Virus record (IMG/VR): IMGVR_UViG_3300027793_000127
Coordinates: 1 to 43,392 of that record
Source of the DNA: a virus
Length of the DNA stretch: 43,392 nucleotides
Reading direction: 5' to 3' (one strand)
Positions 11,313 to 18,716 of this stretch are shown here, piece by piece. Below the pieces are notes generated by a model. The model was not told where the DNA came from and did no database searches. It saw only the letters and a program-made list of their open reading frames with translations. Within the stretch, counting starts at the first letter, position 1. Every line of letters begins with the position of its first letter. Position numbers and translations under genes: made by a program.

Positions 11313-11327
11313 CCTCACATTGTGAGG
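11313..11327. promoter_or_regulatory. Palindrome CCTCACATTGTGAGG, copy 1
   Basis: Exact 15-bp palindrome (7-bp arms, central T) ending 13 bp upstream of the -35 box of the rightward promoter at 11341. This is an operator-like position. Confidence 0.8.
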
Positions 11328-11340
11328 TTACAGATAAGTG

Positions 11341-11369
11341 TTGACGTCACCACTAGACTGTGGTGCAAT
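11341..11369 (+). promoter_or_regulatory. Rightward sigma70-type promoter for the 168-aa gene
   Basis: TTGACG, a 17-bp spacer and TGCAAT. The bases CTGTGG directly before the -10 are shared with the promoters at 12726 and 14305, supporting a common promoter design. The first gene begins about 75 bp downstream. Confidence 0.6.
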
Positions 11370-11444
11370 ATAGGTGTCGGTGGTTTGTTGATCACTGACC
11401 TGGCCTCACCCGTCCGGCCTCACGGGTTTGTTTGGAGTTCTGTC

Positions 11445-11951
11445 ATGGCTAAAAAGCCCGTTGCCCCTTTGACCCTCGAGCAGTTGCGCGAAGCCGCAGC
11501 CAATGCTGCAGCACGCACCTATGGCGCAGTGAAAGCATACGCCGGCGTCCTGAATTCCACGCCGGGTTTCGCTCCCGGCTGGTATGACGAGAAAAAGCCG
11601 GCTGGTGCTGTTGAACTTGAGCGTATTGCATACACTGACCTACTCAAGAATAAGGGGCATGCAAACCCCTATGAGTCCTGGAGACAAATCAAGATCCAGG
11701 CTAAGCGCTTGGCACTTGAGGCCGCAGTCGAGGCTGCTAATGCTGGGGCTGAGGCTGAGGCTGAGGGTGAGACTGAAGCCCCCCAGTCGGACGCCGATAA
11801 GCTTTCCGCGTGGATGCTGGACCGTTTGGCATCGATGATCAAGAAAGTGGAGAAGGCTGAGGCGGTGAACTTCAGCGCTCTTATGGTGCTGCAAGATCTG
11901 AAGAATGCGCAGGCCCGCATTGCGGCCCCTATTACTGGACCCGCTAAGTAA
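11445..11951 (+). CDS. Hypothetical helical protein (168 aa)
   Basis: Function unknown. The N-terminus (MAKKPVAPLTLEQLREAA) is followed by an Ala-rich helical stretch, then WYDEKKPAGAVELERIAYTDLLKNKGHANPYESWRQIKIQ. A low-complexity Ala/Glu segment (about 98-112) and a C-terminal helical domain follow. The ATG at 11445 has GGAG eight bases upstream; the longer open frame lacks a ribosome site and would run through the promoter and palindrome. It is a single-gene transcription unit with its own promoter and strong terminator, first in the rightward direction. That position suits an early regulator or host-takeover protein, but no DNA-binding motif is clear. Confidence 0.75.
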   Translation: MAKKPVAPLTLEQLREAAANAAARTYGAVKAYAGVLNSTPGFAPGWYDEKKPAGAVELERIAYTDLLKNKGHANPYESWRQIKIQAKRLALEAAVEAANAGAEAEAEGETEAPQSDADKLSAWMLDRLASMIKKVEKAEAVNFSALMVLQDLKNAQARIAAPITGPAK

Positions 11952-11987
11952 TTAATCCGCCCGGGTTTCGACCCGGACGCTCCAACC

Positions 11988-12012
11988 GAGCCGCCCACGA
12001 GGCGGCTTTTTT
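11988..12012 (+). terminator. Rho-independent terminator
   Basis: AGCCGCC, loop CACGA, GGCGGCT, then six T. It lies 37 bp after the 168-aa gene. A second small hairpin (CCGGGTTTCGACCCGG) lies just before it. Confidence 0.92.
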
Positions 12013-16850: not shown

Positions 16851-16895
16851 CCCATTAAACTGTACTCTCAATTAATCAATCCACAGGAGCTAACC

Positions 16896-17744
16896 ATGTC
16901 TTACATCTCTTCGTCCGCTGTTCTGATCTCCCTCAACATCTCCTGCTGGCCCGCCAGCAAGGTGGACCGCGAGGCCACCGACAAGGTCAACACCGACGCC
17001 AACGCAGTGTCCAGTGCCGGTCAGGTGCGCAAGGATCTGTTCGCCGGTACGTCTTTGCGAAAGGATATTGAACGCAAGGCTGCGCGTATCCGTAACTTCT
17101 TCAGTACAAGCACCCTGCCCTGGGCTGACAAGGGTGAGCGCATGTTGCCCATGCCCCTGTTCATGGAAGTCAAGCAAACCATCGCACGTGAGAAGCGTGA
17201 GTACGATGAGATGTGCGAGATGTTCTTTGATGCGTACCCACAACTTGTGGCCGACGCACCGTCTCGCCTGGGCAAGTTCTACAAGGCCGAGGACTACCCT
17301 AGCCTTGATGAAGCGCGTAGCAAGTTCGGGTTCCGCTACACCATCACCCCTATGCCCGAGGCTGGTGACTTCCGTCTCGACGTAGCCAACGAGGAGCTGG
17401 CTGAACTCAAGGCGCAGTATGAGACTGCGTACCAGCAACGTCTGGCCGACGCTATGCGTGACCCGTGGGAGCGACTGCACACCATGCTCAAGGGCATGTC
17501 TGCCAAGCTTGCCGACACCGACGACAAGAAGCGGTTCCACGACACATTCGTCTCCAACCCCATCGAGTTGTGCAGCCTGCTGACCAAGCTCAACGTCACC
17601 AACGACCCCAAGCTGGAGGAGGCCCGCCGTCAGTTGGAGATGGCGATGGCCGGTGCCGACATCGAAGCAATCAAGGAAGCCCCCGAAGTGCGGGCAGATA
17701 TGAAGTCCAAGGTCGATGCGATCCTGGGCAAGTTTGACTGGTAA
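16896..17744 (+). CDS. DUF3150-like protein (282 aa)
   Basis: Mostly helical and charged. It opens with a beta-like segment (SAVLISLNISCWPASKVDREATDKV), followed by LPWADKGERMLPMPLFMEV and long helical pairs (about 165-210 and 230-280). The W-x-x-x-K start and the gene order after MoxR and VWA match DUF3150 proteins, which I know as companions of CobS/CobT-like pairs on conjugative elements. Role is probably as adaptor or substrate of the ATPase-VWA complex. CAGGAGCTAACC provides the ribosome site. The family call is from pattern and context. Confidence 0.7.
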   Translation: MSYISSSAVLISLNISCWPASKVDREATDKVNTDANAVSSAGQVRKDLFAGTSLRKDIERKAARIRNFFSTSTLPWADKGERMLPMPLFMEVKQTIAREKREYDEMCEMFFDAYPQLVADAPSRLGKFYKAEDYPSLDEARSKFGFRYTITPMPEAGDFRLDVANEELAELKAQYETAYQQRLADAMRDPWERLHTMLKGMSAKLADTDDKKRFHDTFVSNPIELCSLLTKLNVTNDPKLEEARRQLEMAMAGADIEAIKEAPEVRADMKSKVDAILGKFDW

Positions 17745-17769
17745 TCCATAACACAGAAGGAGCTACATC

Positions 17770-18693
17770 ATGGCCAAAATGTCCTTTGAGAAGTACACAT
17801 ACAACCCCAGCTACAACCTCTGGGGCCTGCCCTCGGTGATCATGGGCAAGCGCGAGGGCAAGTTCCTTGAGTCCAACTACTCCGAGAGCTGCCGCAACAT
17901 CCAGACCAACCATGCCTTGTACAAGACACTGCATAGGCTGGTGGCTAACAAGCCTGACTGGAAGTTTGAGATCCACGACACGGTGGTTGTGTACTCCCCC
18001 AGTGCTGATGAGCGCAAGCATGTCGCCTATCAGTTCAGGATCTGGGCCGGCAAGGTCATGCTCGGTGAGGTTGAGATCGTCACCCGTGGTGAGCGCGAGT
18101 ACATCCGTGTACACAACGACAAGATCCAGGCCGAGGTCAGGCGTGGCAAGGGCTACAACACGACCGACCCGGAGAAGGCCGAGAAGGAGATCCGGCGTAT
18201 GTTCATCACTCCTTCGTTGAATGAGAAGCTCAACAAGGAGATTGCGGCTACTACTGAAATCGTAGATGTCGTAGTTCAAAAGGCCACGGATAAGCGCAGC
18301 CAACTGTGGGCCAGCCTGGAGCCTGCGCGTACCAAGTTTGTACAGAGCAAGTTCGATGAGTTCGTATCTATGCTCACGACGGTCAACGATGTCACCAATG
18401 CAGCAGACTACAAGACTGCGACTGAAGAACGCTCGGTCATTCTTCGCATGCGTGACGCGTGGTCGCAACGCGATAGTGGTAAAGCCCTACTTGTGGTACT
18501 CGATGGTTCGCAGTACATTGTGCGTTATGCGTCCGAGGTCAAGCTTTTCGATGCCGACTCTGTGCCTGATGATGTGCGGGTCAAGGTCGGTATGCTGAAG
18601 CTTACAGAACCACAACAAGTGGTCGATGGCCTGGGCGTCAAGGTAAGCAACGAGGTGTTCATCGTTACCAACACCGACGTTGTGATGGAGTAA
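17770..18693 (+). CDS. Hypothetical fourth member of the MoxR/VWA module (307 aa)
   Basis: No family recognised. The N-terminal half is mixed alpha/beta with Tyr/Trp-rich start (MSFEKYTYNPSYNLWGLPSV) and a basic central part (REYIRVHNDKIQAEVRRGKG). The C-terminal half is helical, then ends with beta segments (LLVVLDGSQYIVRYASEV). The AGGAGCTACATC ribosome site resembles those of the other module genes and the gap to DUF3150 is 25 bp, so the four are one operon. A palindrome copy closes the unit. Possibly the module's target-recognition component, as it is the least conserved-looking part. Confidence 0.75.
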   Translation: MAKMSFEKYTYNPSYNLWGLPSVIMGKREGKFLESNYSESCRNIQTNHALYKTLHRLVANKPDWKFEIHDTVVVYSPSADERKHVAYQFRIWAGKVMLGEVEIVTRGEREYIRVHNDKIQAEVRRGKGYNTTDPEKAEKEIRRMFITPSLNEKLNKEIAATTEIVDVVVQKATDKRSQLWASLEPARTKFVQSKFDEFVSMLTTVNDVTNAADYKTATEERSVILRMRDAWSQRDSGKALLVVLDGSQYIVRYASEVKLFDADSVPDDVRVKVGMLKLTEPQQVVDGLGVKVSNEVFIVTNTDVVME

Positions 18694-18701
18694 TCCAGGG
18701 A

Positions 18702-18716
18702 CCTCACATTGTGAGG
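18702..18716. promoter_or_regulatory. Palindrome CCTCACATTGTGAGG, copy 7
   Basis: Exact copy with one extra pairing base on each side (GA...TC), followed by TTACTTTTCTTAG. As RNA it could form a stem before a T-rich stretch, so it may also weaken read-through at the module end. Confidence 0.8.

Follow-up and report, generated by a model that had tools for sequence, protein, structure and literature searches.

Which protein reads a short palindrome that recurs in exact copies over 7.4 kb of a viral genome, and what does it do there? The question is raised by the IMG/VR record IMGVR_UViG_3300027793_000127, positions 1 to 43,392 (hereafter the window, meaning the whole 43,392-nucleotide stretch that was analyzed), in which a sequence-only reading had described a "regulon-like array" of the 15-bp element CCTCACATTGTGAGG. 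We assign a probability of roughly 0.6 to the following answer: the palindromes are the sites of a symmetric, probably dimeric regulator encoded by the phage itself, most likely the 168-amino-acid (aa) product of the gene at 11445-11951, and this regulator silences early transcription by acting as a roadblock. The evidence, all of it drawn from sequence comparison, is an array that recurs across a family of phages, the conserved positions of its sites, constraint acting at the level of DNA, and a 168-aa gene whose type tracks that of the sites.

The window is one viral record, with head genes at the left (- strand), virion genes at the right (- strand) and an early/replication block at about 11.4-31.2 kb (+ strand). 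The exact 13-bp core CTCACA-N-TGTGAG occurs nine times where 0.003 copies are expected, and eight of the copies fall within 7.4 kb. With up to three mismatches allowed, 23 strand-matches are found against 1.5 expected from dinucleotide shuffles (0 of 100 reach 23), so that the excess over shuffled sequence on which the sequence-only reading was to be judged is clear. Among 40 Markov sequences of the same size and dinucleotide make-up, the biggest family of palindromes has two members, and the probability that at least 10 of 11 sites would lie inside 7.4 kb is 2e-7. Conservation stops one base beyond each side of the palindrome, which, save for that base, bears out the earlier statement that outside bases are not conserved; the absence of sites from the head operon and the virion block was likewise correctly described. 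The sites and the features associated with them are listed below, the palindromes without strand and with distances in nucleotides (nt).

11313-11327: palindrome CCTCACATTGTGAGG, exact, 132 nt 5′ of the ATG of the 168-aa gene, with divergent gene blocks on either side
11445-11951 (+): 168-aa gene ("g170" family), candidate cognate DNA-binding regulator, from its subtype against site spacing and an AlphaFold model
11988-12014 (+): terminator-like hairpin with a T tail, 3′ of the 168-aa gene
12020-12034: palindrome, exact, immediately past the terminator-like hairpin
12166-12180: degenerate palindrome CATCACAATGTGGGG, two mismatches
12284-12298: palindrome, one mismatch, within a repeat-rich non-coding region
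12687-12701: palindrome with central A
12726-12754 (+): sigma70-like promoter TTGACA-N17-TACACT, a consensus match
12814-12828: palindrome, exact, about 50 nt past the predicted transcription start and 24 nt 5′ of an ATG
13194-13208: palindrome, exact, in the coding sequence (CDS) 12852-13658
14305-14333 (+): second copy of the sigma70-like promoter TTGACA-N17-TACACT, a consensus match
14398-14412: palindrome, exact, in the MoxR leader, about 58 nt past the predicted transcription start
15522-15536: palindrome, one mismatch, 2 nt past the MoxR stop codon and 28 nt 5′ of the VWA ATG
18702-18716: palindrome, exact, at the end of the module, 8 nt past the stop of a 307-aa gene
26318-26332: exact 13-bp core GCTCACATTGTGAGT in the SNF2-helicase CDS, the sole outlier and a putative site

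Every site that the sequence-only reading had named is present where it was placed: the exact copies at 11313, 12020, 12814, 13194, 14398 and 18702, the same palindrome with central A at 12687, and the one-mismatch forms at 12284 and 15522. Its list had overlooked 12166 and 26318, and 13194, taken for a leader site, is inside a CDS.

The array is not confined to this record. A relative of the VWA protein is encoded by 34 contigs; those with about 86% similarity keep the same palindrome, with the central A/T flipped at some orthologous sites, and more distant ones carry arrays of their own built on a different palindrome. An alignment of the neighboring 282-aa protein, annotated as DUF3150 in Synechococcus phage MinM2, served as the query for a wider scan, which confirmed at least 595 viral contigs as relatives. 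A blind search for repeated palindromes was made in 80 of these, many of them fragments with mechanical gene calls. Nearly every long contig has its own array of 5-19 exact palindromes, compared with 1-2 in shuffles, and short contigs have few copies. The majority carry CTAACA-N1-TGTTAG or CTAACA-N2-TGTTAG, in up to 19 exact copies. Sequence or spacing is specific to the lineage (CTCACA-N1, CTAACA-N1, CTAACA-N2, CTGACA-N2, TTCATAT-N and TTCCCAC-N). Records of 52, 54 and 67 kb were examined for the CTRACA pattern; each has all its exact sites inside 10-11 kb, and a reversed control pattern gives no match.

Two isolated phages extend the distribution. Planktothrix phage Pag-Yong1 has 25 sites of GGTTCAG-N-CTGAACC with at most two mismatches, often 3 nt past a stop codon and 21-22 nt 5′ of the next start, and Rhizobium phage RHph_TM27A has about 40 sites of GTTACCT-N4-AGGTAAC with at most three mismatches. 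KPP25, Rollin and the bacterial DUF3150 loci (L121-L133) were considered as further carriers and lack the array. Literature searches for five of the site strings and for a paper on Pag-Yong1 found none, and a search on intergenic palindromes in podoviruses gave nothing relevant among the papers listed. By these sequence comparisons, hundreds of related phages appear to share the system, with a version of the site particular to each group. Three database records (OL906435, OQ594354 and PP438419) are of equal length (65,014 bp) and have the same protein match, so they probably represent one virus, the reported hosts being Planktothrix, Synechococcus and Planktothricoides.

In all, 719 sites were collected from 59 non-redundant loci. 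Site positions were compared in loci of two types, A and B, named for the subtype of their 168-aa gene. In type A loci, sites are found at gene starts 50 times (15.6 expected), at stops 29 times (14.9 expected) and inside genes 62 times (136 expected); the pattern is stronger still in type B loci. The start codon of VWA is contained in a palindrome in many lineages, at exactly -6 for sites of 1-bp spacing or -7 for those of 2-bp spacing. Sites within genes also recur at fixed places (about 679-691 in MoxR; 405 or 744-750 in DUF3150). Of 654 sites, 97 have a predicted sigma70 promoter (a consensus match only) upstream, where 33 would be expected, and their distances from the predicted start peak at +20 to +60. 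The window's two TTGACA-N17-TACACT promoters are placed in this way before the sites at 12814 and 14398. The conservation of site positions in relatives, on which the sequence-only reading had staked its proposal, is clear, and the gathering of sites at gene boundaries and downstream of promoters supports its term "regulon-like". Since they are situated past promoters, between genes and inside genes, an obstacle to elongation fits the sites better than occlusion of promoters.

That reading had left three options open, namely an operator network, a partition array and a replication-control site, of which the first is favored. The other two belong to a broader possibility, that the same DNA-binding protein uses the sites to organize phage DNA, for its partition, condensation or replication control or as a self-tag in packaging or protection, and not for transcription. 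Several window sites ring the repeat-rich non-coding stretch at 12020-12701, genes contain many sites, and the RHph_TM27A array reaches structural genes, all of which would suit such a role. It would leave unexplained the strong enrichment at starts, at stops and at +20 to +60 from promoters, which is seen in unrelated motif classes, and the exact overlap with the VWA start codon in many lineages. In addition, a ParA-type ATPase (PF13614), which a ParB/parS-type centromere would have encoded with the binder, is absent from 14 records, which may be incomplete. We therefore regard a role in DNA organization as unlikely.

The gene most closely tied to the sites is the first early gene, which encodes 168 aa in the window and has sites on both flanks in most lineages. 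Its family consists of two subtypes: 31 type A loci have sites of 1-bp spacing only and 15 type B loci have sites of 2-bp spacing, near-duplicate contigs being included in both counts. The spacing trait requires one change on the regulator tree (support 98, in a tree with long branches on several rows) and 5-7 changes on the trees of DUF3150, VWA, MoxR, polymerase, g307 and HTH3310. Approximately unbiased (AU) tests reject a single clade for spacing in DUF3150 (p 1.2e-5), VWA (6e-7) and MoxR (1.7e-4), and none of the other gene families in the span matches the trait as well. The link between regulator and spacing was proposed on part of the same data, and the trees of the other genes provide an independent comparison. 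AlphaFold predicts an all-helical 168-aa protein with a helix-turn-helix-like pair (55-69 and 75-105), at a mean predicted local distance difference test score (pLDDT) of 82.6 and a predicted template modeling score (pTM) of 0.51. It is likely, judging from these patterns, that the product of this gene is the binder of the palindromes. The binders suggested earlier are probably wrong. The helix-turn-helix protein with a DUF3310 domain (21572-22033) is an unlikely one because its tree needs seven changes of state and the 168-aa gene matches site type exactly; the Cys-rich protein (12852-13658) was rejected after the protein at the same place in distant relatives was found to align at only 12-20%.

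Comparisons between close genomes show the sites changing along with this gene. L048 and L052 are 98% identical in MoxR, 93% in VWA and 97% in DUF3150, and only 33% in the regulator. Their orthologous non-coding sites are one inserted central base apart (CTAAC-AATGTTAG and CTAACAAATGTTAG). The 1-bp sites within genes are destroyed in the 2-bp genome, where an extra base would shift the frame. L031 and L032 are about 85% identical, and six orthologous sites have the form TTCCCAC-N-GTGGGAA in one genome and TTCATAT-N-ATATGAA in its partner, with cores 47-53% identical against 81% for the flanks; here too the regulator has diverged (55%). In these comparisons every swap of the regulator gene goes with a rewriting of all the sites, a pattern that suggests a genetic switch not described before.

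Several observations weigh against our identification of the regulon and its binder. A clear array was not seen in a few relatives (for example L024, L034, L036, L094 and L100), and the window's own count of predicted promoters is not above that of shuffled sequence. The 168-aa family has no match in Pfam, PHROGs, NCBIfam or the PDB and belongs to no recognizable DNA-binding family, it lacks a stretch conserved enough to serve as a query against viral contigs, and structure comparisons of two models gave no match in the PDB and none convincing in a viral library (pTM 0.51 for the 168-aa model). Profile comparison detected no homology to the gene at the same position in the TTCATAT and TTCCCAC phages, L027, Pag-Yong1 or RHph_TM27A. 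Consequently, the link to the regulator beyond types A and B is one of position, to which the TTCATAT-phage protein adds a similar predicted helix layout. Five type B loci also retain 1-bp sites. Finally, the loci L020 (2007-2519) and L015 (415-924) encode a protein with two ribbon-helix-helix-like segments and carry both CTGACA-N2 and CTAACA-N1 palindromes; it is possible that this protein is a second regulator.

The last two observations would fit a binder that is a host factor or another phage protein to which the 168-aa gene is merely linked, or a pair of regulators behind the two-class pattern. Repeated switches of whole arrays that track one phage gene would not be expected from a host factor, and none of the other families in the span follows the spacing trait. 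Moreover, the 1-bp sites of type B genomes lie mostly in genes and are placed at random, whereas the 2-bp sites lie at gene boundaries (p 7.5e-7), so that the leftover 1-bp sites look like relics. Another binder is accordingly improbable, and the 168-aa protein is retained as the candidate. Two regulator-like paralogues, in tandem or nearby, are encoded in L090 (2677-3253 and 3936-4428), in L027 (2679-3341 and 4260-4847), which has an unusual long palindrome, GACAAAGTGTCA-N3-TGACACTTTGTC, and in L024 (3865-4485 and 5117-5701).

Whether the palindromes are read as DNA or as RNA can be judged from their symmetry. The dyad extends to the central base, which flips freely between A and T at orthologous sites, and this agrees with the earlier view of a dimer-binding site more than an RNA stem. 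In sites with one mismatch, G-U combinations number 28 in the sense and 24 in the antisense orientation, with 192 other mismatches, so that pairing on the sense strand is not preferentially kept. Within DUF3150, the lineages with a site have the codons CTA ACA GAT GTT AGA (LTDVR) where others have, for example, CTT GAG GAG GTG AAG (LEEVK), and L020, whose motif is CTGACA, has CTG ACA AAT GTC AGA, with both arms changed. At the in-gene site 13194 of the window lineage, the arms are kept in L006 and L007 and the central base alters the amino acid (PHIVR to PHNVR). As far as such patterns can tell, they favor recognition of DNA over RNA. Sites acting in RNA, as hairpins at starts and stops that control translation, RNA processing or termination, are very improbable. 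Several sites do fold into short hairpins, 14398 and 18702 are terminator-like by score, and many sites extend over a ribosome-binding region or a start codon; symmetry to the central base is too tight for an RNA loop, however, sites also occur in genes and in a divergent intergenic region, and a switch of spacing by one central base suits two protein half-sites and not a stem.

Promoters for an N4-type virion RNA polymerase, that is, DNA hairpins read on one strand, were brought to mind by distant MoxR/VWA homologues in N4-like phages and by the 2623-aa protein encoded in the window, and can be dismissed: this giant protein has matches to an HSP90-like ATPase and to a polyvalent-protein domain and none to an RNA polymerase domain, and the sites are symmetric, flip at the center and are found past stop codons and in genes. 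The 2623-aa "polyvalent" protein (31481-39352, - strand) contains an HSP90/gyrase-type ATPase domain (997-1133), LPD39 and a DarB-like C-terminal part, and is probably injected with the DNA.

We infer from these data that the 168-aa protein binds the sites, as a dimer, and that it serves as a roadblock. Once made, the regulator would bind sites just past early promoters, at gene boundaries and within early genes, and there block RNA polymerase, so that the early operon is silenced late in infection, in superinfecting phages that share its specificity, or both. Its own gene would apparently be spared. The site at the regulator gene lies about 124-170 nt 5′ of the ATG in most lineages, and in all eight loci that have such a site and also a promoter predicted within 130 nt of the ATG, the site is upstream of the -35; the site past the stop codon would halt read-through. 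With this arrangement the regulator could stay on while the rest shuts off. Upon acquisition of a regulator with new specificity, sites would be rewritten singly, or lost where rewriting breaks a gene. Tyrosine and serine recombinases (PF00589 and PF00239) are absent from the same 14 records, and the lack of integrase, resolvase and ParA suggests that the phages are lytic. An early shut-off or the exclusion of like phages is thus a more likely purpose than the maintenance of lysogeny.

Precedents for parts of this arrangement exist. A repressor of the lambda type is a helix-turn-helix protein that acts on symmetric operators, few in number, at two promoters. The present system shares the symmetric operators, the helix-turn-helix (here predicted) and the joint change of regulator and operator specificity, but has 5-25 sites per genome, mostly away from promoters, in and between genes. 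The start-associated sequences (SAS/ESAS) of Cluster K mycobacteriophages are also short conserved sequences adjoining many start codons; they are not known to have a palindromic core or to occur past stops or in genes, and no switching regulator is known. With operators of dimeric regulators at large, the sites have in common dyad symmetry at the DNA level and a candidate cognate phage gene that covaries with the site.

The closest parallel in site distribution is with the Cluster A mycobacteriophages (L5, Bxb1), in which the repressor (Rep/Gp71; 183 aa) has 20-30 sites genome-wide, in promoters and short intergenic gaps, and the stoperator consensus varies by subcluster along with the repressor (PMC6550527, PMC9283540). 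The sites described here are similarly dispersed in many copies, many of them in short intergenic gaps, their consensus varies with the regulator, and the regulators are of similar size (168 and 183 aa). The stoperators of L5 are, in contrast, asymmetric 13-bp elements, bound by a monomer and active in one orientation with respect to transcription (PMC9283540), whereas ours are palindromes whose center flips. Rep serves temperate phages as an immunity repressor, unlike a regulator of phages in whose 14 examined records recombinases are absent, and the 168-aa family matches no known family in database searches, a result that does not include a direct comparison with L5 Rep. A further difference from Cluster A is that the rewriting of sites after replacement of the regulator is readable here between near-identical genomes. 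The T1-like phage TLS has intergenic repeats that have been called stoperator-like, in a description that names no regulator where it deals with them (PMC11447400); the resemblance lies in the presence of repeats between genes.

Other features of the window can be noted. An origin-like repeat-rich non-coding region (12042-12330) contains CCAGTTCTTCGTGTGGC (three copies), ACCCATGACG and AAAACGCGTAACT repeats and holds the palindromes at 12166 and 12284. A second dyad, TGAAC-N3-GTTCA (12754-12766 and 14333-14345), comes immediately after the -10 of both TTGACA-N17-TACACT promoters, is kept in L006-L008 and is possibly the operator of another regulator. The protein at 15564-16850 falls in PHROG phrog_1314, whose DUF2201 metallopeptidase/VWA proteins go by the name "HNH endonuclease" in PHROGs, as they do in numerous records of Vibrio phages; contrary to that label, Pfam gives it DUF2201 domains. 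The record ends in a GGTGGA-type tandem repeat (43334-43392), and its end may consequently be an assembly break caused by the repeat and not the end of the genome.

We propose, tentatively and at somewhat less than even odds, that a new family of regulators acts through symmetric, elongation-blocking sites in phages without lysogeny genes, that replacement of the regulator forces a site-by-site rewriting throughout the early regulon, and that mutual exclusion between phages of the same specificity drives constant change, producing immunity groups among lytic phages. It has long been asked how a regulon can outlast a change of regulator. Several natural replicates are found in these phages, each with a difference in one gene and a concerted rewriting of 10-20 sites across several genes. 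The intermediates can be read directly, as relic sites caught inside genes and as sites one base apart. Should the sites silence early genes, they would mark out exclusion groups in uncultured phages that appear to be lytic, and supply a sequence code for predicting which phages can co-infect. A gene family that has had no annotation also gains a testable function.

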